Of a stretch of DNA of 55,149 nt, positions 30,001 to 50,774 are shown one piece after another. Numbering within the stretch: position 1 is the first letter of the stretch; each line of letters starts with the position of its first letter. Position numbers and translations under genes: made by a program. The stretch covers positions 1 through 55,149 of the forward strand of contig JAAZJL010000090.1 in NCBI GenBank assembly GCA_012800355.1. The letters run 5' to 3'. The notes below the pieces were generated by a model that did no database searches, had not been told where the DNA came from, and saw only the letters and a list, made by a program, of their open reading frames with translations. The DNA is from Erysipelotrichia bacterium (GTDB lineage: Bacteria; Bacillota_I; Bacilli_A; Erysipelotrichales; Erysipelotrichaceae).

Positions 30001-30761
30001 CAAATATTAAAACAAGCGCAAGTGCGAATGAGTACACATCTAATTCTAAGGGATTTGTTACAATCAATGATATTATTCGATACGAAGGCTTAGAACCTAA
30101 TAGAGAATATCAAGCTATTGGTTGGTTAATGATAGATATGGAGAACGAGTTATTAAATAGTGATGGGGAACGGTATGAAGCATCAATAGTATTTACTCCA
30201 ACGTCAACAAATGGTACAGTCGAAGTATCATTTAATATTCCGATTAAACTTCTTACAAAAGGTAATCTTGTTATCTTTGAAGAGTTATATATTGAAGATA
30301 AATTGATTGCAGAACACAAGGACTTTCATGATCCAGAACAAACCGTTTCATTTATTAAAATTGTTATCCAAAAAATTGATGTAGACACTCATTTACCATT
30401 AGAGGGTGTTGAATTTACACTATATGATGTGAATGGTAATCCACTAGAAATACTAAAGACTGACGAGCATGGATTGGCTCGTTTTTTAGTTCCAAAAGGT
30501 AACTATTACACTAAAGAAACAAAAGCACTTGAGGGTTATATCTCGAGTGGTGAGACATATGACTTTAAAATATTGGGTAACGAAGAGAATCATGAAGTCG
30601 TTCTAAAAATTGAGAACAAAAAAATTCCAGAACTACCTAAAACAGGAACTGGTATCACAAAGAATGAAATAATAACGATAGCATTGTTATCAACTGGAAT
30701 ATTCCTCATATTCTTACACTTGAAAAAGAAGGAATCAGAGAATGAAGAAAATAAAGATTAA
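27024..30761 (+). CDS. LPXTG-anchored thioester/SpaA(Cna-B)/VaFE-type adhesin
   Basis: N-term VYCLDPE...ATQVMIWDV (thioester-domain Cys/Gln motifs); multiple SpaA-like repeats (GAVFEIYD.., Y.L.E..AP.GY); two VaFE-like blocks; LPKTG + TM + charged tail. Confidence 0.87.
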   Translation: MNLNSIRKSPKKFVLISAIVSLILTGFSLKTISANASTVNVVVGKNYYVTYDFERSTRHPNYHPSYQYYNWHWGDLHVDGQIVYCLDPETKIPSPNGYTSSNWNDYTKAQQDRMILIANYGAGYDGNNSAKMRFATQVMIWDVAGWNVKNIRVFGSQSSFDISNEIALINSRIANHTKRPAFHNTTQSVKVGETFTLTDSTLSSFDVNSLPNGLKLVNKSGNSLTLEVTSNAIDNGSLSLIKKAANKEGSSIVYKKPGNQTFAMFKNDDPVYATLHFELAFGNIEISKKDTNGNIISNAVFELSNDKSNIIGTYTTDSNGKATINDLIEGTYYIREKSVPSPLIVDTSWKEIKVTAGQTATLSATNSIAVGKIEVTKKSIHGDLIPGASFEIRDKNSKLVDELITDTNGYAQSKDLILGSYSVTEVNVPEPLVLDTTPINVTIQYKDQITPIVVEGVEKVNDYQRSDLTLNKVENDWDTLQPENNGLILSGAMIELYAKEDIKEGSKLIYRSGELIGKEVTNTVGQVKFHNLPLGEYFAKETVAPEGYILSDNIWNISLKYDSGKMTTEVISNESTLTNQTVYGKSKIHKTSNGGKEFLQGAIFGLFTDSGESLGEFITDSKGELVSPNLRYGSYYWQELKAPTGYYLDNTKHYFEITLDDHQDIVHLPITNEYIEMKLQIIKTDAETSIPLQGAVFEIYDENDELVTFSFLDENYETQVQNQFITNVNGVAFTRGNLKYGNYTLVEVEAPKGYIRQEPVEFSIDEKTTSIELPVIGRTKVQEVSNQPTTTEIVKLSENSGEPLEGAHLQLIHKETNEILLDWISDGEPVVFKGLYIGEPYVLKEVKAPNEYFAADPIEFVVKETTEIQTIIMLNELIPEIKTQAFYEDGDKVNLVKEEMTVIDTVTYENLVVGKEYTLRGKLLTINTQESIAESEITFTAGNPNGTIDLTFKFDASLLFGKTLVVFEDLYRDERLVATHSDLTDKDQTIYIPNIKTSASANEYTSNSKGFVTINDIIRYEGLEPNREYQAIGWLMIDMENELLNSDGERYEASIVFTPTSTNGTVEVSFNIPIKLLTKGNLVIFEELYIEDKLIAEHKDFHDPEQTVSFIKIVIQKIDVDTHLPLEGVEFTLYDVNGNPLEILKTDEHGLARFLVPKGNYYTKETKALEGYISSGETYDFKILGNEENHEVVLKIENKKIPELPKTGTGITKNEIITIALLSTGIFLIFLHLKKKESENEENKD

Positions 30762-30867
30762 ACGAAAAACTCTCAAATTTGCATATATTGCATTTCTAAT
30801 AATACTCTTGTTGATCGTCTATATAGTTCTAGAAACCATGTCATATTCACAGTATGTACATGTATAA
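30742..30867 (+). CDS. Small single-TM peptide overlapping the adhesin stop
   Basis: MKKIKIKRKTLKFAYIAFLIILLLIVYIVLETMSYSQYVHV*; tightly packed in operon. Confidence 0.45.
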   Translation: MKKIKIKRKTLKFAYIAFLIILLLIVYIVLETMSYSQYVHV

Positions 30868-30881
30868 ATATCGGAGGGAAA

Positions 30882-31238
30882 ATGGAACAAGAAAAGTATA
30901 TGACTGCCGTTGTAGAAGACAAACTTGTCTTACTATCCTATGGCAGACTAAAACGATCACAATTTGACTCATCATTATTCATTTATGATATTGGTTCTTT
31001 AGATAATGGCTTCGAGCCTCTACTTATTAAAAATCAAGTCATTGTTAATCATTACGGGACACTCATTTCAAGTGTCCCTTTATTAAGCGAAGATAGGATT
31101 ATTATTTTATTAGATGATGACAACTTTAGAGAACTTGATGACTATTTAAGTGTCGAAGAATATCAACAAATTGATGCTAAAGAAAATAATCTTTTATTGA
31201 AACAAAGGGAAACTTTTGACATTAACCAAGATATGTGA
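30882..31238 (+). CDS. ICE-associated hypothetical protein
   Basis: RBS GGAGGG; overlaps the next gene by 4 nt. Confidence 0.65.
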   Translation: MEQEKYMTAVVEDKLVLLSYGRLKRSQFDSSLFIYDIGSLDNGFEPLLIKNQVIVNHYGTLISSVPLLSEDRIIILLDDDNFRELDDYLSVEEYQQIDAKENNLLLKQRETFDINQDM

Positions 31239-32182
31239 AGAAAGGAGGTTTTATTTTGAAGTCCCCCATACCTTATATCGGAGGGAAAAGAGCACTCCTT
31301 CACGAGATATTACCCTTAATCCCCGACAAGTACTATAGATATGTTGAGGTGTTTGGTGGTGGAGCATCAGTTCTATTTGCCAAACCTCCTACCCGATTTG
31401 AAGTATATAATGATGTTCAAGATAACTTAGTTAATTTGTTTTTAGTATTAAAAGAACGTCATTTCTCATTTTTAAACGAGTTAAATGTACTGAGCCTTAA
31501 CTCTAGAACAGAATTTAATATCCTCAAAAAGATTGTTAGTGGTGATTATACACCCTACGCATATATAGAGGATGAACTTAATGTTGCCAAGGTAACCTTA
31601 AAACCACTAGAATATAAAGAAATCAAAGAAATATTAACTACAAAGGCTCGAATGCATGATGTGAATCGAGCTGTCTCTTACTATCGATTACTAAGAACAA
31701 GTTATGGTGCTGGTGGAACATCTTTTGGTGCAAGACCCATTGAGGTGCATACATTAAAAATATACCGTGATATTTCAAAAGCACATCACAGACTTAAGCG
31801 TGTTGTTGTTGAAAATAAGGACTTTGAAGATCTTATAAAACAATATGATGCGGAAGATTCATTTTTCTATTGTGATCCTCCCTACTTTGGTACTGAACAA
31901 ACATACGATGCGCCATTTTATTCAAATGATCATGAACGATTATTTCATGTCTTAGATAATATAAAAGGACAGTTTCTTTTGTCATATGATGACAGCGAAT
32001 ATATTAGAGATTTGTATAAAGACTACCACATCGTATCGGTAACAAGATTGAATAACTTAAAGCAGAGGTATGATCCTGGAAGCGAGTTTAAAGAAGTCTT
32101 AATTGCTAACTACGACATTTCAAAAATCAAAAAAGAAAAAACAGTTCAATTGGAGCTATGGAGCGAGGAAAATGAATTATAA
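31235..32182 (+). CDS. Dam-type (D12 class) N6-adenine DNA methyltransferase
   Basis: SPIPYIGGKRALLHEILPLIP, FGGGASVLF, YCDPPYFGTEQTYDAPF. Confidence 0.9.
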   Translation: MKKGGFILKSPIPYIGGKRALLHEILPLIPDKYYRYVEVFGGGASVLFAKPPTRFEVYNDVQDNLVNLFLVLKERHFSFLNELNVLSLNSRTEFNILKKIVSGDYTPYAYIEDELNVAKVTLKPLEYKEIKEILTTKARMHDVNRAVSYYRLLRTSYGAGGTSFGARPIEVHTLKIYRDISKAHHRLKRVVVENKDFEDLIKQYDAEDSFFYCDPPYFGTEQTYDAPFYSNDHERLFHVLDNIKGQFLLSYDDSEYIRDLYKDYHIVSVTRLNNLKQRYDPGSEFKEVLIANYDISKIKKEKTVQLELWSEENEL

Positions 32183-32450
32183 ATCAGAAGTTAAAATACT
32201 GGATGACAAAGGTCGCATCAGTATATCTAAGGAACTCAGAGATTCACTGCAATTTGAAAAGGGGGCTGTATTAAAACTGCAAATTAAGGATGGGAACTTA
32301 CTCATCAGGAAAGTTGGTATTCTTGACCACGAAGGAAACTCTGATAAAGAAATTATGAACAATATTCAAAACGCTTTTAATGCACTTTCAAAAAAAGAAA
32401 AGCTTAGAATCGCAAAACAGATCATCAGTATGATAGAAGGAGTTGATTAA
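32172..32450 (+). CDS. AbrB/SpoVT-like regulator (ORF start refined from 32103)
   Basis: GCGAGGAAA RBS before MNYKSEVKILDDKGRISISKELRDSLQFEKGAVLKLQIKDGNLLIRK (swapped-hairpin AbrB pattern). Confidence 0.75.
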   Translation: MNYKSEVKILDDKGRISISKELRDSLQFEKGAVLKLQIKDGNLLIRKVGILDHEGNSDKEIMNNIQNAFNALSKKEKLRIAKQIISMIEGVD

Positions 32451-32784
32451 AGTGAAATTTAAAAAGGTGAAAAATACAGTCTTATTTGTGACAATATATT
32501 TATCAAGTACGTTACTATTTCCAATTCATGCTGCAGGTAATGTGTCGGGAGTAATTGAAGAAACATGGAAGAATGCAGAGAGTCAAATAAGACAGGTAGT
32601 GGATAATGTTATCTTCCCTGCTCTCAGTGTATTGCTAGCAATTTTCTTTTTTGTTAAGTTAGGAAGTGCATATTTTGATTACAAGAAAAATAATGATCGT
32701 TTCGAATGGACTGCCCCAGCGATCTTATTTGTTGCGTTAGTATTCACACTAACTGCACCAAGTTATATTTGGAAAGTTTTATAA
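32443..32784 (+). CDS. Small T4SS membrane protein (DUF3852/VirB2-like)
   Basis: Signal-like N-term plus two hydrophobic segments; directly before VirB6-like gene. Confidence 0.6.
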   Translation: MIKVKFKKVKNTVLFVTIYLSSTLLFPIHAAGNVSGVIEETWKNAESQIRQVVDNVIFPALSVLLAIFFFVKLGSAYFDYKKNNDRFEWTAPAILFVALVFTLTAPSYIWKVL

Positions 32785-32785
32785 G

Positions 32786-33631
32786 ATGTTTATATGGGAT
32801 TTTGTTGTAGACAAACTATTCGATCAAGTAACAGATTGGATTCATGGGCAGATTGTCGCATTTTTAGGAGAGTTCTTCGGTATGATCAACAACATGGGTG
32901 CTGAGTTATTCGACTTTGTTTGGGTTAAAGCCATTGTACTTTTCTTTAATTACTTCGCATGGGCAATGTTCACCGTGGGGTTAATTCTAGCTGTATTTGA
33001 AACTGCCCTCGCTTATCAAAATGGCCAAGGTAATATTGGCAATACTTTTATCAATATTCTGAAGGGATTTATTGCAACATCCCTAATAACAGTACTTCCA
33101 ATTGAACTTTTTAAGTTTGCTGTTTCGATGCAAATTATTCTATCTAAAAGTATTGCTGGATTACAAGGTGGAGAAGCAGGCATTGGTGCTATGGCCACCA
33201 ATACAATGTCTACCATTAACAAATCTGGTTTATCGATCATATTCAGCATTTTTCTTTTAATTGCTGTTGGGTATTCTGTCATCAAAATATTTTTTACTAA
33301 TCTCAAAAGAGGTGGTATATTACTAACTCAAATTGCCGTAGGAAGTCTATATATGATATCTGTTCCAAGAGGCTATATTGATGGATTTACAGGTTGGAGT
33401 AAACAAATCATCGCACTATGTTTAACCACATTTTTGCAATCAGTATTCCTGGTAGCAGGACTCATGGTTTTTCAAGACAGTTTACTATTAGGCATAGGAT
33501 TAATGCTGAGCGCAAACGAAATACCTCGCATTGCTGAACAGTTTGGACTGGACTCATCAACACGAGGTAATATGATGGGCACTATTTATGCAACACAAAG
33601 TGCTCTAAATATCGTAAAATCATTTAAATAA
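32786..33631 (+). CDS. VirB6/TrbL-like conjugal transfer membrane protein
   Basis: Polytopic ~280-aa protein in T4SS gene order. Confidence 0.75.
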   Translation: MFIWDFVVDKLFDQVTDWIHGQIVAFLGEFFGMINNMGAELFDFVWVKAIVLFFNYFAWAMFTVGLILAVFETALAYQNGQGNIGNTFINILKGFIATSLITVLPIELFKFAVSMQIILSKSIAGLQGGEAGIGAMATNTMSTINKSGLSIIFSIFLLIAVGYSVIKIFFTNLKRGGILLTQIAVGSLYMISVPRGYIDGFTGWSKQIIALCLTTFLQSVFLVAGLMVFQDSLLLGIGLMLSANEIPRIAEQFGLDSSTRGNMMGTIYATQSALNIVKSFK

Positions 33632-33644
33632 TTATGGAGGAATT

Positions 33645-33923
33645 ATGTATCTATACCCAAACAACCTAAGAGCTAGACCGATGCTTTGGCTTTGGTACCT
33701 AAAGGATATCGTGGTCATCGGGGTGATCACACTAATTGCGGTATTCGTTTATGCACAATTTAGTAACATTAATCTTCTGCTAGGAGTAGCAGTTTATTCA
33801 ATTTTATCATTAAGATTTGACGACTTAAGTATCTTGGATATTCTAACTCACTTATGTCGTTTTTTTATACTCGAACAACAAACTTTTATTTGGAAAAACG
33901 AAAGGATTATAAATCATGAATAA
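33645..33923 (+). CDS. PrgI/VirB3-like small membrane protein
   Basis: Two N-terminal hydrophobic helices, T4SS gene order upstream of VirB4. Confidence 0.55.
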   Translation: MYLYPNNLRARPMLWLWYLKDIVVIGVITLIAVFVYAQFSNINLLLGVAVYSILSLRFDDLSILDILTHLCRFFILEQQTFIWKNERIINHE

Positions 33924-34236
33924 AAATAGAAATCTAGCATATGGCTATGTTTATGACATTGATGGAATGTATGACGAGATATTTGTGTTTGAAAACACCC
34001 CAATAAATGTTGCAAGTTTCATCACCATTAACAACATGAATGAATGTACTATCACAAATGAAGCAGATACCTTAATCTTAACGTCAATTACTGGAGGTTT
34101 TGTTGATACATGTCCTGATCAAGATTATCTAACAAGAGTTCTATTTCCTGTGCTACTCCCCATGCAGACAGGGCAAACAGATCCTATTGAAATAGAATTC
34201 ATTCAGGATCACTTTACATATGAAATGGAGATGTAA
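33916..34236 (+). CDS. ICE-associated hypothetical protein
   Basis: Overlapping ORFs in operon. Confidence 0.55.
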   Translation: MNKNRNLAYGYVYDIDGMYDEIFVFENTPINVASFITINNMNECTITNEADTLILTSITGGFVDTCPDQDYLTRVLFPVLLPMQTGQTDPIEIEFIQDHFTYEMEM

Positions 34237-34237
34237 A

Positions 34238-34810
34238 ATGTTTCGTAAAAATAAAAAATCTACGAGAAAGCTTTTGAATCTTAAAAAACTTGATACCTCG
34301 CGTATCATTGGATACAACGGTCATCAGTTACTTTATTACTCCGTTGTTCCCTATAACTTATCTGTTTTATCAAATGAAAATATTGAATCAAAGATATTTG
34401 AACTTATGAACTTGATAAGAGGTACAGAGAGTGTTGAAATACTTTGTTTGAATAACAGAGAAAATTTTAGGTTTAACAAAGACTACCTTGTTAAACGAAT
34501 TCAAGATGAAACTATTAGCAGTATTAAAAGATTGAATAAATTGGAATTAGAATTTATTGATAGTATTCAAATCAAGACCGCAACTGCACGGTCTTTTTTA
34601 ATTGGTATACGCATACGAAAAGATGATGAAAAAATCGTGGAACACGAAGTAAATATGTTAGAGAAAACATTTAAACATCGTGGATTTACTATGCAAAAGC
34701 TAAGTCCTGATGAACTTAAAACCTTATTGGCGGTTTACTTTGAACAAAATGTGACATCAGATACTTTTGAAGATATAGATGGAGAGAGGTGGCTAATAGA
34801 TGAATTTTAG
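34238..34810 (+). CDS. ICE-associated hypothetical protein (start refined)
   Basis: GGAGATGTAAA-ATG; overlaps virB4-like start. Confidence 0.6.
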   Translation: MFRKNKKSTRKLLNLKKLDTSRIIGYNGHQLLYYSVVPYNLSVLSNENIESKIFELMNLIRGTESVEILCLNNRENFRFNKDYLVKRIQDETISSIKRLNKLELEFIDSIQIKTATARSFLIGIRIRKDDEKIVEHEVNMLEKTFKHRGFTMQKLSPDELKTLLAVYFEQNVTSDTFEDIDGERWLIDEF

Positions 34811-36644
34811 AAGAAGACCTAAAAATAAACAAGGTCATACTGAACAAAAGAAGATGCATGACTTTCTGGACATGATATCACCTTCAACTATAAAGTTTTA
34901 CACCGATTACTACATATGTGGTAACACTTATAGGTCAGTATGGGCTATAAGACAGTATCCTACATCGACGGAAGAGCTTGCCCTACTTCGTTATTTGGGA
35001 GAAAAAGAAAATGTCACCTTAAAAATTTATTCGAGAATTGTAACACCTGTCGAGGAAAGGAAGATCATCTCTAATGCAACTAACAAACAAAAAATGAAAA
35101 CAGTATCTTCATCTCAAATGCAAGAAACAATTGAAGCACAGGTAGATATACAAGATTTAAATACATTAATTGCTAATATGCATAGGTCAAAAGAACCTTT
35201 AGTTCATACTGCAGTGTATATAGAAATGATCGCAAATGATTTGGAATCCTTAAATGTTCTCCAATCAAGTGTGTTTGCAGAACTAACACGTTCGAAGATG
35301 AATATAGATAAACTATTCTTAAGACAAAAGGAAGGTTTTATTTCCGTAATGCCATCTGGATTTAATGCTTTTAGAGAAGAATTTGAAAGGGTACTTCCTG
35401 CATCATCAGTTGCTAATTTATTTCCATTTAACTATTCAGGTAAAACTGATCCTAATGGTTTCTATATTGGAACTGATAAATACGGTTCTAATATCATCGT
35501 TGATTTTAATAGAAGAACTGAGGATATCACAAATTCAAATATCATCATTCTTGGTAATTCAGGGCAAGGTAAATCTTACTTACTAAAAAGTATAATTCTA
35601 ATTCACCTCCAATCAAATATGAATGTCATTGTCCTTGATCCTGAAAGTGAGTATATAGATTTAACACAAAATGTCGAAGGTGATTACATTGACTTAACGA
35701 GTGGCCAATACATTATCAATGTACTCGAACCGAAATTATGGACAGATGAAGTATTGATTGAGGATCTCTACGATGAATATACTCCTGCTGCATTTAAAAC
35801 TTCTAATGCATTGTCTCAGCATATTTCATTCTTGAAAGACTTTTTTAAAACCTATAAAGACCTGAGTAATGCACACATTGATACTTTGGAAATCATGTTA
35901 AAAAAACTATATGACAAGTTTGAAATCACCGATCGAACAGATTTATCTAAACTTAAAAGAGAAAATTATCCTATCTTAGAAGATTTATACAATTTGATAG
36001 ACCTTGAATACAAAACATACAATCCTGAAGAAAAGGAATTATATGATGAGAATATTCTTAGAGAAATTTTACTTGCAATCTATTCAATATGCAAAGGTTC
36101 TGAATCAAGATACTTCAATGGATATACAAACATCCAAGACGGAAGACTTGTAACATTTGGTGTTAAAGGTTTACTCAATTCGAATGAAAACTTAAGAAAT
36201 GCATTACTCTTCAATGTTTTATCGTATATGTCTAACGAACTCTTAACAAAAGGAAAAACAGTTGGTGCTTTGGATGAGTTCTATTTATTTTTAACGAACC
36301 TAACCGCTGTTGAATATATTAGAAACTTTATGAAACGAGTACGAAAAAAAGACAGTTCAATCATTCTTGCCTCTCAAAACTTAGAAGATTTTAATATTCC
36401 TAAGATAAGAGAGTATACCAAACCACTCTTCTCAATCCCATCTCATCAATTTTTATTTAACGCTGGAAGTATCGATGTACAGTTTTATATGGATACATTA
36501 CAACTTGAAAAATCAGAGTTTGAGTTAATTAGATATCCACAGCGTGGTGTTTGCTTATACAAATGTGGAAATGAAAGGTACAACCTAAAGGTTGAAGTTC
36601 CTGAGTACAAATCAAAATTATTTGGTGAAGGTGGCGGACGCTAA
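34800..36644 (+). CDS. VirB4/TraE-like conjugative ATPase
   Basis: Walker A ILGNSGQGKSYLLK, Walker B-like VGALDEFYLFL, RKKDSSIILASQNLEDF. Confidence 0.9.
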   Translation: MNFRRRPKNKQGHTEQKKMHDFLDMISPSTIKFYTDYYICGNTYRSVWAIRQYPTSTEELALLRYLGEKENVTLKIYSRIVTPVEERKIISNATNKQKMKTVSSSQMQETIEAQVDIQDLNTLIANMHRSKEPLVHTAVYIEMIANDLESLNVLQSSVFAELTRSKMNIDKLFLRQKEGFISVMPSGFNAFREEFERVLPASSVANLFPFNYSGKTDPNGFYIGTDKYGSNIIVDFNRRTEDITNSNIIILGNSGQGKSYLLKSIILIHLQSNMNVIVLDPESEYIDLTQNVEGDYIDLTSGQYIINVLEPKLWTDEVLIEDLYDEYTPAAFKTSNALSQHISFLKDFFKTYKDLSNAHIDTLEIMLKKLYDKFEITDRTDLSKLKRENYPILEDLYNLIDLEYKTYNPEEKELYDENILREILLAIYSICKGSESRYFNGYTNIQDGRLVTFGVKGLLNSNENLRNALLFNVLSYMSNELLTKGKTVGALDEFYLFLTNLTAVEYIRNFMKRVRKKDSSIILASQNLEDFNIPKIREYTKPLFSIPSHQFLFNAGSIDVQFYMDTLQLEKSEFELIRYPQRGVCLYKCGNERYNLKVEVPEYKSKLFGEGGGR

Positions 36645-37720: not shown

Positions 37721-37733
37721 AGGAGCTTAGTAA

Positions 37734-38057
37734 ATGTCAGAACATTATGAAACAATCGCTAATTTAATTTATAAAGAATGCATACGTTGGGTAGTGGATT
37801 TTATCGAAGAAGAAATCTCATTCTCAACTTTGTTGGATCGATTTCAAGAGAACTATAACAAGTTTTCTGTACTGGAAGATATTGATCTATTGGACTTATT
37901 GAATGATGAAAAAGAAATTCAATTACTTGAAATAAACATTGCACTTGAAGATAGAGTCGTAGCGATTCAATTTGACGACGATACTTACAGTGAAAGACAT
38001 CTAAAAGAAATACTCATTGAAATTATTAAAATTGAAGAGAAACTAGGCGCAAATTAG
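37734..38057 (+). CDS. Hypothetical protein
   Basis: RBS AAAGGAG; in tra operon. Confidence 0.6.
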   Translation: MSEHYETIANLIYKECIRWVVDFIEEEISFSTLLDRFQENYNKFSVLEDIDLLDLLNDEKEIQLLEINIALEDRVVAIQFDDDTYSERHLKEILIEIIKIEEKLGAN

Positions 38058-38083
38058 CGCATTTTGTATAGGAAGGAATCAAA

Positions 38084-39004: not shown

Positions 39005-39013
39005 GAGGAAAAT

Positions 39014-39232
39014 ATGAAAACTAAAAAAGTAACAATTGAAGTTAGTGAATCCAAATTAAGTGCTTTAGAAGTATTTATTAAAAATAGAAACTCAACAGTC
39101 GAACTAGAACTTCAAGATACATTTAATAAACTGTATGAAAGGGTTGTTCCAAATCAAGTGAAGTTGTTTGTAAAAGAAACTTCCCCCTCTAAAAAAGATG
39201 ATGGTTTGAACATACCAAAAGTCGGTAAATAA
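39014..39232 (+). CDS. Small DUF6103-like ICE protein
   Basis: AGGAGG RBS; KKVTIEVSESKLSALEVFI. Confidence 0.5.
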   Translation: MKTKKVTIEVSESKLSALEVFIKNRNSTVELELQDTFNKLYERVVPNQVKLFVKETSPSKKDDGLNIPKVGK

Positions 39233-39274
39233 TCTCCTAATTGACCCAAATCTATAGATGATTTTTACTGAAAT

Positions 39275-39405
39275 AAAGCGGTACCGCTTTTATAAGCCAA
39301 ATTTGGGATCAAGTTTCGTAAAATTCTAACATTTTTTTCAATATTTTGCTTATCGCGCATATTAAAAGCCACAAACTCGAGGTGTGTGCCCGAATCGTGG
39401 CTTTT
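39275..39405. terminator. Convergent-junction hairpins (bidirectional terminator region)
   Basis: aaagcggtaccgcttt palindrome (39275-39290) and aaaagccac...gtggctttt (39364-39405) between plus-strand tra genes and the minus-strand RM operon. Confidence 0.65.
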
Positions 39406-39599: not shown

Positions 39600-39601
39600 A
39601 A

Positions 39602-40867
39602 CTATAAATCATTAGAGTTGATGACAGTCATATTACCTATCGAATATTCTTTAAAATCTACATCTTCAACAAATAAAATCCCTTCCACATTAAGTGAATT
39701 ATAAGGAATGTCATTTATTTCCATAAACTCTAAGTATTCAGCTAGTTCTTTAAATCCAGTATAAGCATACTCTATATCTCTAGTATATTTGATTTCTCCG
39801 ATTGTTATATTAATTAAGTAATCTTCATTAAATTCTAAGATTATTAAATCAGGTCTTCCCGCCCAAATAGTATTATTTGGCTTGGATTTTTGTAATTCTT
39901 TAAACTTATTTGTTATCTCTTTAATATTTTTAAGTTGTTGTAGATATTTATGGGTTCCAATGATATCTTCTAATGTTATATGGAAGTTTAAGTATTTTAC
40001 AGCAGACCTATTGTGATAAATTAAGACTCTATTATTATCAACTGTATGTGCTTTTGCAAAATAATCTTCAGTACCATCGATAATATTGAAAGTTACATTG
40101 TTAAATTTATTACGAATATATTTAATTATTACAAACAGTTCGAAAACCTCATCTACATCCTGAATTTCGATAAATGTTGTTTGAAGCAACGAGTTTATAG
40201 TATCCATATTTTCCGACATTATTAGATTATAATACTTTATTATTTGAGCTGCGTCTCTATAAATTTTTTTTCTACTTTTTAAAACATCGTTCAACATTTT
40301 AGTAGAAATGTCTATTTTCGAGGTATCTATTCTCTTAATATATATATTTCTATTAAGTAACTTTTTGACAGTACTCATAATAAATTCACCATTTTTAAAC
40401 CAATGGTATTTTTGAAATCTTGCCATTCCAACATCTTTGAAAATTATTTCTTCTAAAATTTCCAAAGATTTTTTTAACACAATATTCTCTTTAGTGTTAT
40501 ACAATTTGTCAGTACTTGCACAAACAAAAGTCATATTAGTCGTATTACCAGTTCTATACCTTTCTTGCATGGTTTCATTCCATATAATACGTCCTCTTAT
40601 TTCACCTTGTAACACGTCTTTTTTAGGCTCAGTAGAATGTCGTAACTGATCAATTGAAGTGTCTAGAGTTGTGATATAATCGTAAACAGCTGGTGAGATA
40701 ATAAAGTGAATGTTAAGTATTTCTTTCATATCATTGAATTTTACATCTTGAAATTCAAAGAAAAATTTGGGATTAATAAAACCATTTCTAAAATAATAGA
40801 TTAAATCATCCTTAATTTCTTTTATCATCTCGAATTTTATGTTGTTGTCATATAATTGTTCTTTCAT
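39602..40867 (-). CDS. LlaJI-like restriction subunit, PD-(D/E)XK nuclease
   Basis: GRPDLIILEFNEDYLINITIGEIKYT (D...ExK); directly follows the McrB-like gene. Confidence 0.7.
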   Translation of the reverse strand: MKEQLYDNNIKFEMIKEIKDDLIYYFRNGFINPKFFFEFQDVKFNDMKEILNIHFIISPAVYDYITTLDTSIDQLRHSTEPKKDVLQGEIRGRIIWNETMQERYRTGNTTNMTFVCASTDKLYNTKENIVLKKSLEILEEIIFKDVGMARFQKYHWFKNGEFIMSTVKKLLNRNIYIKRIDTSKIDISTKMLNDVLKSRKKIYRDAAQIIKYYNLIMSENMDTINSLLQTTFIEIQDVDEVFELFVIIKYIRNKFNNVTFNIIDGTEDYFAKAHTVDNNRVLIYHNRSAVKYLNFHITLEDIIGTHKYLQQLKNIKEITNKFKELQKSKPNNTIWAGRPDLIILEFNEDYLINITIGEIKYTRDIEYAYTGFKELAEYLEFMEINDIPYNSLNVEGILFVEDVDFKEYSIGNMTVINSNDL

Positions 40868-40870
40868 ATC

Positions 40871-42625
40871 TTACTCAATATTGATTCCGAAAAATGTTTG
40901 GATCGACAATTTCAATTTGTGCTTGTTTTCAATAGAAGCCAATGAAATTAGTTCTCTATAATACTTAATTAGTTCATCTTCATACAGTCCTTCTAACTGG
41001 GGTAGAATATACGATGATATCGCAGATATATAGTCACCACCATGGTAAATAAATTTAGCAATATCTTCGACCAATGCCGGTCCCATTTGTCTATACTTAT
41101 TAGTTAAAGTCCACAAATCAGTAATATTCGCTTCATCTACTTCATTGAGATTAATCTCCCATAGATTTAATAAAGTTCTTACAGTATCAATATCAATATT
41201 ATTTGGAACATTAATTTGAACGAACGCAAATCTTCTCATGAATGCATAACTCATCTCGTAAAGTGATGATTTATCAAAAGTATTCATTGTTCCAATCAAT
41301 CTCCAATCCTTAGGAACTATATAATTGTGACTTTGTGCTGGATAGTCTTCATCGGAGTTCTCAAGCGATATTTCAATTGGGTTACCATCTTTCACAAAAC
41401 CCAAATCCACATCATCACCTGATAAAATTGAAAAGAAAGATCCAAATGCTTTATCTATATCAGCACGATTTATTTCGTCAATGATTATCCATTGGTTTTT
41501 TTGATTATTATTATTATCTTTAAGTGAACTTAAAAATATGCCGTCGTCAAAGTATAATTGTCCAAAAACATCTGGCTTGTATCCTCCGATGGTATCATAA
41601 GTAGACCAATCTGACATTGCTGTAACCATCTTATAATCGGCTTTATAACTTTCAGCTATTAATTTTGCTATTTTACTTTTCCCTGTACCAGGCGGACCAA
41701 TTAATATTAGATGTTTTCCACTTTTGAAAATAGACCTAATACTGTTTTTTATAATTTTTTCATCCTCAAAGTACAAATTTTGGAAATCCAAAGTTGATTC
41801 AAAATCTATATTAAACATTTGTTTGTTTTTAGCTTTTATTTCAACATTTTGATGATTTCGGAAAAAGCTTAGGTCAGGAGCCGGTAATTCGGTCGATTTA
41901 TTTGGAACAAGTTTCTTAACTAACTCCTCCGTTTTCTCTTTTGCATCTTTTTCAAATTTGCCTAACTTCTCTATTACTTTCTCTCTATAACTTGGATTTT
42001 TCCATATATAGATAAACATATTAGGGTTACCCATTACAAACTGGCGGAGCCAATCATCACCATTTAAATCAATATATTCTTTAATGATATCTTCTATGTT
42101 CTCTAAAAAAAGTCTAGTTTCAGATGTTCTATTAACAAGGTGGAAATCATAATCTTCCTTTAGAACAGGATACAAAATAAATTTTGTTTCAGTTCTAACA
42201 ATATACAAATATGTAAGTTTGCCTAGCAATAAATCAATAAATGAACATGACTTTGGATCGCTTTTATCAAATTTTACATATCTTCCGCTTTCTGTGTAAT
42301 ACATAGGCTTGATTTTTATTTCTCTATCATTGGATCTTTCATATTTTTCTATGTTTTCCAGCTTACCTTTAAACATACTCTTAAAAGGCATAACATTTTT
42401 TACAACCAAATCAATATACTCATCCAATTTGTCACTATCTATTACAAATTCATGTGTGAAACCATCAAAAAAGTCTTCTATAGCTTTTTTGTCTTTAGGA
42501 ATATCACTTGCATAATAACTACCTACTTGACTATCTTTTATACTATTAAGTTGACTTTTTGTAACAGCCTCTGAATTAGGAATATCAATTATTATATAAT
42601 CTAGTTTATTTACATGAGTAGCCAT
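40871..42625 (-). CDS. McrB-like AAA+ NTPase, LlaJI-like restriction subunit
   Basis: LIGPPGTGKSKIAKLIAESY, QWIIIDEINRADIDKAFGSFFSIL, LIGTMNTFDKSSLYEMSYAFMRRFAFV. Confidence 0.85.
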   Translation of the reverse strand: MATHVNKLDYIIIDIPNSEAVTKSQLNSIKDSQVGSYYASDIPKDKKAIEDFFDGFTHEFVIDSDKLDEYIDLVVKNVMPFKSMFKGKLENIEKYERSNDREIKIKPMYYTESGRYVKFDKSDPKSCSFIDLLLGKLTYLYIVRTETKFILYPVLKEDYDFHLVNRTSETRLFLENIEDIIKEYIDLNGDDWLRQFVMGNPNMFIYIWKNPSYREKVIEKLGKFEKDAKEKTEELVKKLVPNKSTELPAPDLSFFRNHQNVEIKAKNKQMFNIDFESTLDFQNLYFEDEKIIKNSIRSIFKSGKHLILIGPPGTGKSKIAKLIAESYKADYKMVTAMSDWSTYDTIGGYKPDVFGQLYFDDGIFLSSLKDNNNNQKNQWIIIDEINRADIDKAFGSFFSILSGDDVDLGFVKDGNPIEISLENSDEDYPAQSHNYIVPKDWRLIGTMNTFDKSSLYEMSYAFMRRFAFVQINVPNNIDIDTVRTLLNLWEINLNEVDEANITDLWTLTNKYRQMGPALVEDIAKFIYHGGDYISAISSYILPQLEGLYEDELIKYYRELISLASIENKHKLKLSIQTFFGINIE

Positions 42626-42628
42626 AAT

Positions 42629-43750
42629 TTACCTCCATTGTATATATTCTAACATATCTTCCAAGATTTTAATTAAAACATCTACAACTATACTATTACC
42701 CGCCTGACGGTACCCTTGTGCTCTAGAAACCACTATTTTATAATCGTCAGGAAACCCCATTAATCTGTGTGCTTCTCTTTCAGTAAGCATTCTTATTGGA
42801 CCGAGATCCGTCATATAATTATCAACACCAGCTCTATGCCTGTTACCCATTGTAGCCAAAATAGTCCGAGCAATTGGCAAATCTATTTCTACTTTTTGAT
42901 AGAAACCTTTTGTACCCGTGCTCATGACGTATTTCTTCAACTTAGGCGAGAGTATATATTTTGGGTCCACATATCCTTCTTCAAAAGTCAGACTCAACTT
43001 ACTATTTATAGATTTAAAATTACCTAACTTAGTTTTACTTAATAAAAAATCTTGCATGGTAAATTTTAAATCTTCAACTTTAGGAGGAAAAGAATAATTT
43101 TTATCAATTTTAATATCCTTTCTAACACCAACAACAAATATTCTTCTTCTAGTTTGGGGAATACCGTAGTCCTTTGCATCTAGCACAGATTCAAAAATAT
43201 TATAGTTTAATTGACTGAAAACACCTTTCATGATTTCCCAGGTGTTTCCTTTATCGTGTGTAGTTAGGCCTCGAACATTTTCATATATAAACATTTTAGG
43301 ATGAATTTCATTTAATAATCTTGCATAATCATAAAAAAGTGTACCTCTTGTGTCTTCCAATCCTTCTTGAAATCCCACTGTAGAAAAACTTTGACAAGGA
43401 CTGCCTCCAACGAATAAATCTACTTCATTTTCGTAATCAGTACCATCGAGCATTCTAATATCTAAATAAAATTTGCTGGGATCAATATCGTAATTCGCTA
43501 AGTACGATTTCTTAACAAAATTGGTTCTTCTGGTTTTATTTGAATATAAGCTATCAACATACTCTTTTTTTGCAAGTACAGTCTCCATTTTCTTTATTTT
43601 TTTTAATTCCTCTTCAGGTTCTATATCAATTTCTATATCTCCATTATCACATGCAAAAACAATTTCGTGATCTATATTCATCCTTTTTAATGCTTGTTCT
43701 ACTGCACCTATTCCACTAAAAACAGTAGCAATTTTAAGTTTTTTATCCAC
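42629..43750 (-). CDS. DNA cytosine-C5 methyltransferase (GTG start refined)
   Basis: AAAGGAG-ATATTT-GTG; ATVFSGIGAVEQAL, GGSPCQSFSTVG, ENVRGLTTHDKG, YGIPQTRRRIFVVG, QAGNSIVV. Confidence 0.92.
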   Translation of the reverse strand: MDKKLKIATVFSGIGAVEQALKRMNIDHEIVFACDNGDIEIDIEPEEELKKIKKMETVLAKKEYVDSLYSNKTRRTNFVKKSYLANYDIDPSKFYLDIRMLDGTDYENEVDLFVGGSPCQSFSTVGFQEGLEDTRGTLFYDYARLLNEIHPKMFIYENVRGLTTHDKGNTWEIMKGVFSQLNYNIFESVLDAKDYGIPQTRRRIFVVGVRKDIKIDKNYSFPPKVEDLKFTMQDFLLSKTKLGNFKSINSKLSLTFEEGYVDPKYILSPKLKKYVMSTGTKGFYQKVEIDLPIARTILATMGNRHRAGVDNYMTDLGPIRMLTEREAHRLMGFPDDYKIVVSRAQGYRQAGNSIVVDVLIKILEDMLEYIQWR

Positions 43751-43763
43751 AAATATCTCCTTT

Positions 43764-44855
43764 TTATAAAATTTCGCAATTATATATTTCTTCAACTATT
43801 GCTTCTAAAACTGTAACCACTATTGAATTCCCTATTTGTCTATACGCTGGTACATTGGGTACAACTATTTTGAAATCATCGGGAAATCCCATAAGTCTAA
43901 TTGATTCTCTATACGTTAATTGTCTAATTGCTCCTCGTTCACCTTTAAATATACCAATATACGCTCTTTCTAGTATTTCTTTATTGTTTTTAATATCTTC
44001 ATAGGGTACAAATACAAAGTCACCATTCCAATTAAATTGCTGATTTGCTTTTTGAGTTTGAATTATTTCTTGATTTACTCGCGCTCTATTTTTATATTTT
44101 TCATTGGTTACAAATTCAAACCCTTTTTTACCTAAGAAATGTCTTGCTGCGACATTTTTTTCAAGATAATCAAACATAGTAGTTGTTAATTCTTTTCCTC
44201 TAGGAAAATAAAACTCTTTATTTTTGTCTTTCCATCCCACTACAAAGAGACGCTTTCTATTTTGCGGTATTCCAAAATCTTTCGAGTTTAAAACTGTATA
44301 TTTGAATTTGTAGTCAAGAGATTCAAATATTTCTTTAATTTGCTTCCAGGTTTTACCTTTATCATGAGTTAACATTCCCGGAACATTCTCAAATATAAAA
44401 ACTTTAGGTTTTGTTTCTTTAACTAATCTTGCGAAATCATAAAATAAAGTCCCTCGAGCATCATCTAAACCTGCCCTTTTGCCGATTATGGAAAAACTTT
44501 GACAAGGACTTCCTCCTACTAACATATCTACTTTACCTTCGTATTTTGTTCCGTCGATGAACCTAACATCTTCATACCATTGATCTTCTCTAATAGAATA
44601 ATTCGCAAAATAGCTTTGTTTTACGTAATTGGGTTTGCTTAAAGAATCATACTGATTTTTTACAAATTCAGAGATTGATTTCTTTTTGCTATCTTCGAAT
44701 TTAATTTTAAGTTCATCTAATGAACAAATTAGATCTCTTTCACCGTTATCCGAAGCAAAAATGATATTATAAGGAATTTTCTTTTTAATCAATGCTTGTT
44801 CTATTGCTCCAATACCGCTGAATATGGTAGCTAAATTTAATTTATCCATCAACAT
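43764..44855 (-). CDS. DNA cytosine-C5 methyltransferase (second copy)
   Basis: ATIFSGIGAIEQAL, GGSPCQSFSIIG, ENVPGMLTHDKG, FGIPQNRKRLFVVG, QIGNSIVV. Second ATG (44849) may be the better start. Confidence 0.92.
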   Translation of the reverse strand: MLMDKLNLATIFSGIGAIEQALIKKKIPYNIIFASDNGERDLICSLDELKIKFEDSKKKSISEFVKNQYDSLSKPNYVKQSYFANYSIREDQWYEDVRFIDGTKYEGKVDMLVGGSPCQSFSIIGKRAGLDDARGTLFYDFARLVKETKPKVFIFENVPGMLTHDKGKTWKQIKEIFESLDYKFKYTVLNSKDFGIPQNRKRLFVVGWKDKNKEFYFPRGKELTTTMFDYLEKNVAARHFLGKKGFEFVTNEKYKNRARVNQEIIQTQKANQQFNWNGDFVFVPYEDIKNNKEILERAYIGIFKGERGAIRQLTYRESIRLMGFPDDFKIVVPNVPAYRQIGNSIVVTVLEAIVEEIYNCEIL

Positions 44856-45053
44856 TTCCTCCTTAGCCAGCTTATTATAGCATATTAAAAATCTTCTGTC
44901 TGCTAATCAAAAAAGTTAACTTAAAATAACTCTTGAAACATAATAAACGCTTATCCACATGAAATAGTGACTACTGATAGACTTCATCATAGACCGTATC
45001 ACATAAATCAATATAATTCACAACTAATGGTTTTATTTATAGAAAGGAGATTC

Positions 45054-45467
45054 ATGGATAAAAGAATTAAAACAGGAACAATGATGTATCCAAGAATCAT
45101 AAAAATTTGTGATGATAATCTAGATATATCAAATGCGAGTTCTCGTAATGACTTTATAGAACAAGCAATTCAATTTTATGTTGGCTATTTGCACAAAGAT
45201 GATAATATTGATTACTTAAACTCGATAATTGACCAAACAATTAATAATAAAATAGATTTACTAGAAGAACAGTTATCGACTGTTCTTTTTAAACTAGCAG
45301 TTGAATTAAGTATGCTAATGAACATTGTTGCTGCAAACAATAAAATAGATTCAAACACACTAAATGCGTTAAGAAAAAAATGTATTAATGATGTTAGATC
45401 ATCAATAGGAAAAGTCAATTTTGAAGAAGTGATAAAATATCAAAACCAAGAAGGTAAGGAGGTATAA
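45054..45467 (+). CDS. Relaxosome accessory / RHH-like protein upstream of relaxase
   Basis: AAAGGAGATTC-ATG; short N-terminal DNA-binding-like region then coiled region; precedes relaxase. Confidence 0.6.
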   Translation: MDKRIKTGTMMYPRIIKICDDNLDISNASSRNDFIEQAIQFYVGYLHKDDNIDYLNSIIDQTINNKIDLLEEQLSTVLFKLAVELSMLMNIVAANNKIDSNTLNALRKKCINDVRSSIGKVNFEEVIKYQNQEGKEV

Positions 45468-45469
45468 AA

Positions 45470-46951
45470 ATGCCACGAATCATCGCAAAGTTTGGATATA
45501 TGAAACCAAGCAATGTAAAGAGATCTAGTTTTTTAGAATATATTGCCACAAGAGATGGTGTTCTAAAAAACATTGATAAGATAATAGATAAGCCACCCAC
45601 AACTAAGCAATTAGACTTAATGAAAAAACTGATAAATAAATATCCTGAAATTATGAAATATGAAACATATAAAACTTACGATGAAAATAAATCAGTCGGT
45701 AGTGCAAGCGAGTTTATTACTGAGGTTGAAGAATCTCATTATACGAGTTTAAATCGATCAAAAGAATATATTGAGTATATTGCGAAAAGACCACGAGTTG
45801 TTAAAGAAGGAACTCATGGTCTTTTTACTAATACCGATGAAAAAATAGTACTTGAACAATTGAAAAAGCGAATAGAAAAGCATCAAGGTAATATCTGGAC
45901 TGGAATCATATCACTAAAACGAGAAGATGCACATCGCTTAGGCTATGAAGATTTGAAGTCATGGAAAATACTAGTAAGAAGTCTTCAAAACGAACTCTCT
46001 AAAAACATTAAAATAAATCCCGTTAATTTTGAGTGGTATGCAGCGTTTCATAATGAGGCACACCATCCACATATCCATCTAATTATGTTCTCTAAAGATG
46101 AGAAACAAGGATATTTAAATAAAAAGTCAATTGATAAAATTCGCTCTGCATTTGCAAAAGAAATCTTTAAACAAGATTTACTACACATCTATAAATCCCA
46201 AACCCATTATAGAGATCAACTTAAACTATCCAGTGAAACCTACATCAAATCTAAAGTGTCAAAGATTTCAAGATCTTTTAAGCAAGACGAAATTATAGAT
46301 TTAAAACTCACTGAATTGGCAAAAATCTTGAAGAACACTCCAGGAAAGCATACCTATGGTTATCTTCCAAAATCCACAAAAGAACTCGTAGATGAAATTG
46401 TTAATCTCGTGTCGCATACTCCTGAGGTTAGAGAACTTTTGGATTTATGGTATCTTCAAAGACAAGAAATACTTTATACATACACTGATAAAAAAGAAAA
46501 AATTAAAAGCTTGGCAGATATCGATGCATTTAGGAGTGTTAAGAATATAATCATTAAGCATGCCGATAACATTATTATTCCGACAGGCACCACTCAAGAA
46601 AAAATCGCTACGAACACCAAAGAAGTTAGACCGATTTCTATAGATCAAAAAGCAAATACACTCGTTCCACAAGACACTCTAGATCAATTGGAAGAGCTAC
46701 TTGAAACCGGAAACTTGGATGTAGGTGAAGATGCAGTACCTACCAGTAAATCAGAAATCAAATTGAACCAAGAAAGAGGAAAGGAAGATCGCAATATAGT
46801 TCACTATTCTTTAAAATTATTTTATTCGATCAGTAACATGTTTGAATCATCTATGATATCTCAAGCACAAAAATATCATGCAGATCAAGAACTTTTAAAG
46901 AATATCAAGAAACAGAAAATTGCGTTAGGACATCGCTATGACGATAAATGA
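45470..46951 (+). CDS. MobP3-type relaxase
   Basis: MPRIIAKFGYMKPS..., HNEAHHPHIHLIMF HUH-like motif. Confidence 0.85.
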   Translation: MPRIIAKFGYMKPSNVKRSSFLEYIATRDGVLKNIDKIIDKPPTTKQLDLMKKLINKYPEIMKYETYKTYDENKSVGSASEFITEVEESHYTSLNRSKEYIEYIAKRPRVVKEGTHGLFTNTDEKIVLEQLKKRIEKHQGNIWTGIISLKREDAHRLGYEDLKSWKILVRSLQNELSKNIKINPVNFEWYAAFHNEAHHPHIHLIMFSKDEKQGYLNKKSIDKIRSAFAKEIFKQDLLHIYKSQTHYRDQLKLSSETYIKSKVSKISRSFKQDEIIDLKLTELAKILKNTPGKHTYGYLPKSTKELVDEIVNLVSHTPEVRELLDLWYLQRQEILYTYTDKKEKIKSLADIDAFRSVKNIIIKHADNIIIPTGTTQEKIATNTKEVRPISIDQKANTLVPQDTLDQLEELLETGNLDVGEDAVPTSKSEIKLNQERGKEDRNIVHYSLKLFYSISNMFESSMISQAQKYHADQELLKNIKKQKIALGHRYDDK

Positions 46952-48281
46952 TATTCACATCTTAGATATACTTGAGTCTCTTAATGAACCATTAATACAG
47001 AAAGGAAAAAAAGTAAAATGGGATAAACATCATTCAATAGATATTAATGATAACAAATGGTATCGACACTCAACACAAGAAGGCGGATACCCAATTCAAT
47101 TTATGATGAAGTTTTTTGATATGGACTATAAACAATCAGTTCAATATCTTTCAAAAACATTCAATGTTAGAAAAGACTTACCCAATAAATCAACAAAACA
47201 AAATCTAAAAATACCTTCGAGAAATCCATACAACACAAGAGTAGAAATTTACCTGAAACATTTTCGGTTTATTGACCAAGAAATTATTGATCATTTTATA
47301 AGTAATCTATTACTCTATGAATCAAGTAAATATAATAACTGTGTGTTTGTAGGAAAAGATAATCAAGAAAAAATAAGACACATACATGAAAGAAGCATTC
47401 ATACATCCGAATTTGAATATAAATCAAATGCTTATGGCTCAGACTCGCGATGGCCATTCAATCATATTGGAACAAACAACAAACTCTATGTATTCGAAAG
47501 CCCAATTGATATGTTGTCGTACATCACACTACATAAAGAAAATTGGCACAAAAACTCATATGTTGCATTATGTGGTCTATCAAATCGACCAGTCTTAAAT
47601 ATGATAGAGACTTATCCTTTCCTAAGTAATGTTATTTTATCGCTAGACAATGATATTCCAGGACAAGAAGCCTCTCTAGCAATTCTGGAAGATTTAGAGA
47701 AATTAAAAAATATCAAAATTGAGATTAAGACATCCACATTCAAAGACTTTAATGAGGACTTAAAATTTAAAAAAGGTATATCACCTATTGGAGGAATCAT
47801 TGATCCTTTTATCGGTTATAAAGATGAAATTCTTCATAACATAAGGAGTGATGTCGTAAAAAGAAAACAGTTAACATTGAGAGATTTATTAGACGCTTTT
47901 TCAATCTTTTTGTATACTTTTGAATCAACTTCAGTAAAACAAAGAGCGAAGGCACTCAATGCTCTAATTGAGAGCGCTACAATCGCGATTAAAATGGCGC
48001 ATCAACAAAGTACTCACTTAGAAAAAAATATAACATTGAATGAATTTATAGATAATCGTGTTTTTGAAAGTTTACCCTTTATAAAATACGTAGATAAAGG
48101 TCCCCACTTTAGTAAATTCATGCAAGAATTAAATTTTTTAAAAAAAGAGTTCAAACTGAAAATTTATCATACTTCAAATGATAAAGAAGAAATCATCGCA
48201 TCATTGATGCGATTCGCAAGAACATGTGTATATACGCATGTTCTTTTAATACTCAAAGAAAGGAAAAAACATTATGACTAA
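46938..48281 (+). CDS. DUF3991/TOPRIM-like (primase-related) conjugation protein
   Basis: WYRHSTQEGGYPIQFMMKFFDMDYKQSVQYL; TOPRIM-like YVFESPIDMLSY and ILSLDNDIPGQEAS. Confidence 0.8.
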   Translation: MTINDIHILDILESLNEPLIQKGKKVKWDKHHSIDINDNKWYRHSTQEGGYPIQFMMKFFDMDYKQSVQYLSKTFNVRKDLPNKSTKQNLKIPSRNPYNTRVEIYLKHFRFIDQEIIDHFISNLLLYESSKYNNCVFVGKDNQEKIRHIHERSIHTSEFEYKSNAYGSDSRWPFNHIGTNNKLYVFESPIDMLSYITLHKENWHKNSYVALCGLSNRPVLNMIETYPFLSNVILSLDNDIPGQEASLAILEDLEKLKNIKIEIKTSTFKDFNEDLKFKKGISPIGGIIDPFIGYKDEILHNIRSDVVKRKQLTLRDLLDAFSIFLYTFESTSVKQRAKALNALIESATIAIKMAHQQSTHLEKNITLNEFIDNRVFESLPFIKYVDKGPHFSKFMQELNFLKKEFKLKIYHTSNDKEEIIASLMRFARTCVYTHVLLILKERKKHYD

Positions 48282-48522
48282 AAAGTTTATCAAACCTGAA
48301 TCCCCACTTATTGGAGCAGACGGTAATATTTTTAATTTAATAGCCATAGCATCACGTTCTCTTAAGGAGAACAATTATAGCGAAGAAGCAGAAGAAATGA
48401 CTAAAAGAGTCATGCAATCATCAAGCTATGAAGAAGCATTAGGAATCATCAACGAGTATGTTGAACCTGTAAATGTGTATGAACATGAAATAAGTCAAAG
48501 AGACTATATAGATTATGAATAA
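48274..48522 (+). CDS. Small conserved-looking ICE protein
   Basis: Overlaps both neighbours; SPLIGADGNIFNLIAIASRSLKENNYSEEAEEMTKRV. Confidence 0.65.
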   Translation: MTKKFIKPESPLIGADGNIFNLIAIASRSLKENNYSEEAEEMTKRVMQSSSYEEALGIINEYVEPVNVYEHEISQRDYIDYE

Positions 48523-50221
48523 TGAGGCAATCATCATTCTAACTGTTATGGGATTAGGACTATTGTTCTTAATTATCATTACAAATAGAAACTACAATCT
48601 CAACAATATCAAAAGCAAGCGTGTAGGAGATGGACAGCACGGTACAGCGAAGTTTGCATCGAATGCGGAAATACGCTCAGCACTAAAAGAAGTCCCTTAC
48701 GAGCCGTCTAAATGGCGGCAGAAAACACGCTTACCACCTACTCAGGGAGTCATTATTGGCTATACTAAAAAGCATAACAAAGTCCACGCACTGGTTGATG
48801 ATTCGGATGTTAATACTTTGATGATTGGTGCTGCAGGGATTGGAAAAACCGCATACTTCTTATATCCAAATTTAGAATATGCATGTGCTTCAGGTATGTC
48901 TTTTATGACAACCGATACAAAGGGGGATTTGTTTCGTAACTATGCTACTATTGCTGAAAAGTATTATGGATATAAAGTATCAATTATAGATCTCAGGAAT
49001 CCTTTAAATAGTCACCATTTTAACTTACTTCATCTTGTCAATAAATACATGGAGTTGTATTATAAAAGTAAGAATAACTTAACCTATAAGGCAAAAGCAG
49101 AAAAATATGCAAAAATCATTTCTAGAACGATAATCTATTCAGGGGAGACTGACATGAACTTTGGGCAGAATCAGTTCTTTTATGACTCTGCTGAAGGACT
49201 ACTGACTGCAACAATCTTAATCGTTGCAGAATTTGCAGAGAAAAATAAAAGACATATTATATCTGTTTTTAAATTAATCCAAGATTTACTAGCGCCTGTT
49301 GGTCATAAATCCAATGAATTTAAGGTGCTTATGGAACAGTTACCAGAAAATCACAAGGCACGTTGGTTCGCGGGTGCTGCACTAAATACCTCTGATCAAT
49401 CCATGCAGGCAGTCATTTCAACTGCCCTTGCACGACTGAATGCTTTTATAGATTCGGAAATGGAACAAATATTATGTTTTGATACTGACTTAGATGCGGA
49501 GACTTTTTGTAATGAGAAGTCTGCGCTTTTTCTTGTTATGCCCGAAGAAGATAATACTAAGTACTTTATTATTTCTCTAATCATACAACAACTCTATCGC
49601 GAAATTCTGACGATTGCGGATGAAATGGGAGGAGCACTTAATAATAGGGTGGTGTTCTTTTTAGATGAAATTGGAACCATGCCCAAGATAGAAAATGCAG
49701 AGATGATGTTCAGTGCGTCTCGTTCTCGTAAATTATCCCTTGTGGCCATCATACAGTCTTTGGCACAGTTAGAAAGAAACTATGATGCTCAAGGTGCTGA
49801 GATTATCGTTGATAACTGTCAAAACTCAATCTTTGGTGGCTTTGCACCTAACTCAAAAACTGCTGACGTTTTATCTAACAATCTTGGCACACAAACCATT
49901 CTAAGTGGTTCAGTAAATAAAGGTAACGGTGAAACATCCCAAAGCTTACAAATGATAGAAAGACCCTTAATGACATCAGATGAACTCAAGTCTATGCCCA
50001 AAGGTGATTTCATTGTCATGAAGACCGGTTACAACCCTATGAAGATGAAATTAAAACTCTACAAAGAATGGGGAATCGAATTTGAGGAACCATATGTAGT
50101 AAATACAAAGGATCGAGGTGAAATAGAGTATACGAGTAAAGATGAAATCTTTAGTGCAGTAAGTGGCACAGATCTACATAACAAAATCAAACAAAAGAAA
50201 GGAAAAATGAGAGTTGAGTAG
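48515..50221 (+). CDS. VirD4/TraG-type coupling protein
   Basis: GTAKFAS; IGAAGIGKTAYFLYPNLEYA; TTDTKGDLFRNYA; FFLDEIGTMPKIENAEMMFSASRSRKLSLVAIIQSLAQL. Confidence 0.93.
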   Translation: MNNEAIIILTVMGLGLLFLIIITNRNYNLNNIKSKRVGDGQHGTAKFASNAEIRSALKEVPYEPSKWRQKTRLPPTQGVIIGYTKKHNKVHALVDDSDVNTLMIGAAGIGKTAYFLYPNLEYACASGMSFMTTDTKGDLFRNYATIAEKYYGYKVSIIDLRNPLNSHHFNLLHLVNKYMELYYKSKNNLTYKAKAEKYAKIISRTIIYSGETDMNFGQNQFFYDSAEGLLTATILIVAEFAEKNKRHIISVFKLIQDLLAPVGHKSNEFKVLMEQLPENHKARWFAGAALNTSDQSMQAVISTALARLNAFIDSEMEQILCFDTDLDAETFCNEKSALFLVMPEEDNTKYFIISLIIQQLYREILTIADEMGGALNNRVVFFLDEIGTMPKIENAEMMFSASRSRKLSLVAIIQSLAQLERNYDAQGAEIIVDNCQNSIFGGFAPNSKTADVLSNNLGTQTILSGSVNKGNGETSQSLQMIERPLMTSDELKSMPKGDFIVMKTGYNPMKMKLKLYKEWGIEFEEPYVVNTKDRGEIEYTSKDEIFSAVSGTDLHNKIKQKKGKMRVE

Positions 50222-50768: not shown

Positions 50769-50774
50769 ATAATT

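Follow-up and report, generated by a model that had tools for sequence, protein, structure and literature searches.

Gene content and borders of the ICE

The window, the whole stretch of 55,149 nt that we analysed, is one entire contig (G000:C42); the genome it belongs to is ~81% complete. It carries the plus-strand transfer genes of an ICE (27024-50477), whose products include a SpaA/TED/TQ-domain adhesin, a Dam-type methylase, DUF3852, TrbL_5, a VirB4-like ATPase, an M23 peptidase, a MobL relaxase, a DUF3991/Toprim protein and a VirD4/TraG coupling protein. Further to the right, on the same strand, lie a sigma-70-like ORF related to Tn916 orf7 (50775-51185), a noncoding stretch that we assign to the canT family of RNAs and treat as a candidate processive antiterminator (51489-51738), an XRE-type helix-turn-helix ORF recognised by sequence and homologues (51958-52221), an excisionase-like ORF (52268-52465) and a tyrosine integrase (52446-53573; Pfam PF00589). 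Two minus-strand ORFs (24431-24691 and 25256-26017) separate the likely left end from the transfer operon, and an OmpR-like regulator gene is divergent from, and adjoins, the operon start.

The ends of the ICE were provisionally placed by a 13-bp repeat together with arm-like repeats. The 13-bp repeat, ACTACTCCCACTC, is present in exact copies at 21548 and 55026; the second of these (55026-55038) is the right attachment repeat, which, by its sequence, looks like the 3' end of guaA. A degenerate further copy at 24029-24045, with arm-like repeats from 24117, is the likely left attachment site. The arm-like repeats, TTTTTGACATCA, are located at 21659, 24117 (1 mismatch), 53799 and 54914. Both left-end-like repeats, the exact one at 21548 and the degenerate one at 24029, are followed by TGACATCA arm-like repeats, and the segment 21548-24130 possibly reflects tandem accretion of two elements at one site.

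Several other genes lie in or beside the element. A minus-strand block inside the transfer region (39602-44855) probably encodes a McrBC-like restriction pair (an AAA_5 ATPase and its partner) and two C5-cytosine methylases; related ICEs keep the genes flanking this block, without the block itself. Immediately outside the first left repeat is a minus-strand gene for a SIR2-domain protein (19986-21464), possibly a defence gene at an integration hotspot, and a plus-strand gene for a DUF5655 protein (54009-54902), likely cargo, follows the integrase ahead of the right end.

The related ICEs used for comparison were drawn from the same order, including Stoquefichus, Faecalibacillus faecis and F. 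intestinalis genomes. Those of G100 and G102 are near-duplicates, and L002 has sites in common with G095. The operon starts near the element's left end in G100/G102 and G012, and the G100/G102 insertion adjoins ssrA. Homology in the VirB4 gene of the G012 ICE (13554-15866) is broken by ~2.3 kb, apparently an insertion.

Terminator-like hairpins in the transfer genes

The initial annotation had described eight terminator-like hairpins inside the reading frames of the ICE, and all eight were recovered, to within a few bases, with RNAfold energies ranging from -8.4 to -17.2 kcal/mol. Strong sites, all on the plus strand as are the others, lie in ORF 30882 (LPD28; 31056-31078, -11.8 kcal/mol), ORF 45054 (45265-45287, -9.8 kcal/mol), the 3' end of the DUF3991/Toprim gene (48218-48246, -14.2 kcal/mol) and the TraG/VirD4 gene (49496-49526, -14.7 kcal/mol). 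The MobL relaxase gene holds the hairpin at 45784-45825 (-17.2 kcal/mol), and ORF 33645 one of marginal hairpin score at 33820-33860 (-11.5 kcal/mol); those in the adhesin gene (30462-30483, -9.3 kcal/mol) and in ORF 34238 (34574-34595, -8.4 kcal/mol) pass the looser threshold only. Two further plus-strand sites had been overlooked: a ninth intragenic hairpin, also in ORF 33645 (33777-33792, -6.5 kcal/mol, tail TTTATT), and an intergenic hairpin 5' of the adhesin gene (26904-26926) with the tail TTTTTTGTTGG (T6), which is possibly the equivalent of Tn916 T1.

Hairpin and T-tail were scored by an in-house TransTermHP-like scheme, and the null consisted of shuffles preserving protein, codon usage and codon-junction dinucleotides (100-200 shuffles for ICE sets, 24 for large sets). 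The ICE set (19 plus-strand genes, 17.4 kb) exhibited 9 sense sites vs 3.3 expected and 5 strong sense sites vs 0.25 expected (P ~0.005 for both, the floor of 200 shuffles), whereas its antisense strand was at expectation (9 vs 6.2; strong, 1 vs 0.3). The excess in the ICE genes was limited to T-tailed hairpins (5 vs 0.57 with a tail; 9 vs 8.5 without). Chromosomal controls, 509 kb in total, contained no sense excess, either in the host chromosome (20 contigs, 239 kb; 64 vs 63, strong 3 vs 3.25) or in the G012 chromosome (269 kb; 55 vs 62, strong 3 vs 3.6), and the remaining genes of the window were without sense enrichment in the initial scoring run. At the host rate, the strong sites of the ICE have a Poisson probability of 3e-6. 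The pLS20 conjugation operon (33.5 kb), taken as a positive control, yielded 10 strong sites vs 0.69 expected, a density of 0.30 per kb, vs 0.29 per kb for the ICE. The enrichment that the initial annotation had proposed to look for against codon-preserving shuffles is present (5 strong sites vs 0.25), and the antisense strand and the 509 kb of chromosome, which it had named for comparison, show no such excess. Separately, we observed significantly more T-tailed hairpins than expected on the antisense strand of chromosomal genes (host, 150 vs 113; G012, 148 vs 117), perhaps from convergent gene ends or antisense termination.

Strong intragenic sense sites were also found in related ICEs: 2 vs 0.21 in G095, 2 vs 0.18 in G100, 2 vs 0.11 in G102 and 1 vs 0.02 in L002. 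The single site in G012 (vs 0.23) is not significant alone, and G026 and G120 contained no strong intragenic sense sites and were without significant enrichment alone. Pooling the window with G095, G100 and G012 gave 10 strong sites vs 0.87. Richness in terminator-like hairpins recurs in two or three related ICE lineages, at mostly different positions. Some places do recur: the 3' part of the Toprim gene has sites in the window, G026, G100/G102 and G120; the 3' part of the MobL gene has sites in G095 and G012; the G012 homologue of ORF 33645 has a hairpin at the place matching window site 33820; and intergenic sites stand immediately before MobL in G095, G100, G102, G012 and G120, in some cases with a T-tract that extends into the ribosome-binding site. 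Conservation in related ICEs, which the initial annotation had made a test of its reading, holds for the enrichment in two or three lineages and for a few common positions; most individual positions differ. Mostly differing positions with some recurring would be the pattern expected from selection for terminators per se rather than for a single site.

The tail motif TTTTTTATTGGA, which recurs in relatives, was considered as a possible binding site and rejected: the window has one occurrence, at chance level, and the motif of the relatives consists for the most part of a T-tract that leads into a ribosome-binding site.

The noncoding RNA near the right end

The RNA at 51489-51738 (plus strand) is located between the sigma-70-like gene, which is immediately 5' of it in every close relative, and the XRE-xis-integrase genes. 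Rfam at its gathering threshold gave no match in the window; in E-value mode, the 3' part of the RNA (51645-51738) matched pemK RNA (RF02913) at 32.3 bits (E = 8e-4), below the cut-off of 34.8 bits. A DNA search retrieved the RNA at 67-73% identity, and in the corresponding position, from G264 (two copies), G151 and G273, with fragments in others, and the RF02913 cut-off is passed by close relatives (G264b, 40 bits; G273, 37.9 bits; G151, 36.8 bits).

We used Tn925 on pCF10 (tet(M), orf7- and orf8-like genes, annotated xis and int) as a stand-in for Tn916, with the borders of canT set by gene landmarks, the published sequence existing only as a figure. The orf8-xis interval of Tn925, which is the canT region, matched RF02913 at 55 bits and has 5' motifs in common with the window RNA. 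Furthermore, an independent nhmmer profile built from 21 pemK RNA loci, with Tn916-like and window-like rows left out, found both the Tn925 region (E = 9e-35) and window positions 51489-51657 (E = 3.4e-12). The same profile found one copy each in G120, G012, G095, G102 and G026:C52, and G100 also has the RNA; the best E-value in ~0.5 Mb of chromosomal controls was 0.9. Wherever the right end of a related ICE could be read, the RNA was present, on the strand of the transfer genes. Where neighbours were listed, a small sigma-like or similar ORF precedes it and recombinases follow it, tyrosine-type in the window and G120 and, on a look at the sequences, serine-type in G095, G102, G100 and G012. 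The homology to Tn925 was detectable only by covariance and profile models, and a blastn search of plasmid and phage sequences with the RNA returned no match. By its homology to the orf8-xis region, together with its location and strand, we assign the RNA to the canT type, and we regard it as a strong candidate for the factor that would allow read-through of the ICE terminators.

Applied to the RNA as aligned by MAFFT, RNAalifold returned three invariant pairs only, because loop lengths vary. When hairpins were swapped, two hairpins of the 5' half paired better within their own sequence than between sequences.

Other structures surround the RNA on the plus strand. Between the sigma-like gene and the RNA are two hairpins with T-rich tails, at 51221-51262 (-21.3 kcal/mol) and 51417-51455 (-14.1 kcal/mol), the second with a loop, GAGATTCCTTATC, that is strongly conserved in G264, G151 and G273; they may halt transcripts ahead of the RNA or mark its promoter region. 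A hairpin at 51830-51880, GAGTGATTAAC/GTTAATCACTC, stands directly 5' of the XRE gene and appears to covary in relatives, and the repeat CCTCCTATTTT...AAAATAGGAGG at 50690-50790 could mask the ribosome-binding site of the sigma-like gene.

Proposed read-through of the transfer operon, and the pemK RNA family

Two known systems bear comparison with the ICE. Tn916 has terminators T1-T3, with T3 inside orf15 (Wirachman and Grossman 2024, PMC11658703), and its antiterminator canT, located between orf8 and xis, is an RNA-based, processive, cis-acting element that works in one orientation only and is effective on foreign terminators too (PMC11658703). Like Tn916, the ICE has the homologous RNA on the same strand between a sigma-like gene and xis-int, and terminator-like sites both 5' of and inside its transfer genes. 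It differs from Tn916 in its unrelated transfer machine (MobL relaxase, TrbL_5), in the two minus-strand ORFs at its left end, and in having nine intragenic terminator-like sites, all predicted, vs one. For the conjugation operon of pLS20, processive antitermination by the bipartite conAn system is established (PMC8955417). Like the ICE, pLS20 has many predicted sense terminators inside its operon, at similar density, and its Toprim (E = 2e-14) and VirD4 (E = 3e-31) genes are related to those of the ICE; a MobL relaxase is annotated in both, with weak direct similarity (E = 0.065).

Candidates for an antitermination factor other than the RNA were also searched for. Six ORFs from the region where the conjugation genes of pLS20 begin, among which ConAn1 was not pinpointed, had no match in the window, and the canT profile found no match in the first 40 kb of pLS20. 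NusG paralogues of the RfaH/LoaP type also give processive antitermination of long operons. A single PF02357 match was present in the ~81% complete genome, and such a paralogue was accordingly set aside.

We consider it likely that the transfer operon is rich in terminators that are read through, in the excised circle, by means of the canT-family RNA at the right end. The hairpins would be intrinsic terminators retained in the conjugation genes, where they would stop stray transcripts from host promoters or from within the element. Once the ICE is excised and circular, productive transcripts would begin at its right end and include the RNA at 51489-51738, which would act in cis on RNA polymerase to cause read-through of terminators; the polymerase would then pass the joined ends and continue along the transfer operon, like canT in Tn916. 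The operon start near the left end in G100/G102 and G012 fits such a junction-crossing transcript. In the window, the minus-strand ORFs at 24431-24691 and 25256-26017 lie in between, and a transcript crossing the junction would be antisense to both. Further points counted against this mechanism are that transcription of the operon could start, with no RNA involved, from a promoter near 26030, that T-tailed hairpins (51221-51262, 51417-51455) precede the RNA, that its RF02913 score is just under the cut-off and that G012, G026 and G120 taken singly lack significant intragenic enrichment. The initial annotation had predicted attenuation or antitermination of these genes and had seen no factor for it: the enrichment, the related ICEs and the canT-family RNA support an operon in need of antitermination, whereas the protein-plus-RNA factor of conAn type that it had named as one option finds no counterpart in the window among the six pLS20 ORFs.

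It seems unlikely that real terminators act alone, with partial termination or ribosome masking setting the ratio of gene products, the RNA serving xis-int only and the operon having its own promoter near 26030. The divergent OmpR-like regulator gene adjoining the operon start would suit such an arrangement, as would several sites in relatives that stand, attenuator-like, directly before a ribosome-binding site. However, nine serial intragenic sites would leave little full-length transcript without antitermination, the operons of G100/G102 and G012 begin near the element's left end as in Tn916, and canT acts on genes past the junction (PMC11658703). Bypass of the terminators by another factor, either a protein or a second RNA near 26 kb, with the canT-like RNA unrelated to these sites, appears quite improbable: a short or divergent factor gene would evade the searches used, but the genome has a single NusG, the six pLS20 ORFs are without a match in the window, and an antiterminator RNA of known type already sits where Tn916 has canT. 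That the hairpins are functionless chance palindromes of AT-rich coding DNA we find hardly credible. Weak sites are frequent at the loose threshold (host genes have 64 in 239 kb), and it was the finding itself that led to the testing of this gene set; the strong sites, however, stand at 5 vs 0.25 (3e-6 at the host rate), are repeated in related ICEs and are matched by the pLS20 positive control.

Beyond this element, we lean towards the view that pemK RNA is the 3' core of a class of cis-acting processive antiterminators, ~250 nt in length and including Tn916 canT, which would serve a large number of unrelated mobile elements in Firmicutes, whose recombinases are of tyrosine or serine type and whose transfer machines differ, and would link excision to the read-through of transfer operons guarded by terminators. 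The 3' parts of the ICE RNA and of the Tn925 canT region match the same family, RF02913, whereas the conserved element of the canT-family RNA extends ~165 nt further 5'. In Rfam, RF02913 is a cis-regulatory RNA that takes its name from pemK; the neighbours of RF02913-type elements include xis-int, serine recombinases and only sometimes pemK. At 20 other pemK RNA loci, strong sense sites were raised (11 vs 5.2), but antisense sites were raised also (21 vs 10). The text of the 2024 Tn916 paper (PMC11658703) mentions neither pemK nor Rfam, and among openly accessible papers other than preprints we found none joining pemK RNA to canT.

The canT-family RNA would supply the likely missing factor of a terminator-rich ICE and suggest a function, open to experimental testing, for RF02913, an orphan RNA family that is common, with matches in 71 of the 295 genomes searched within the order. 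If this reading is true, a single type of RNA governs both stray transcription and gene expression after excision in many of the conjugative elements that carry genes between gut bacteria. Contigs of related elements carry other orphan RNAs as well, namely skipping-rope RNA and ssNA-helicase RNA (L126 4272-4351, minus strand; L123 11741-11786, plus strand).
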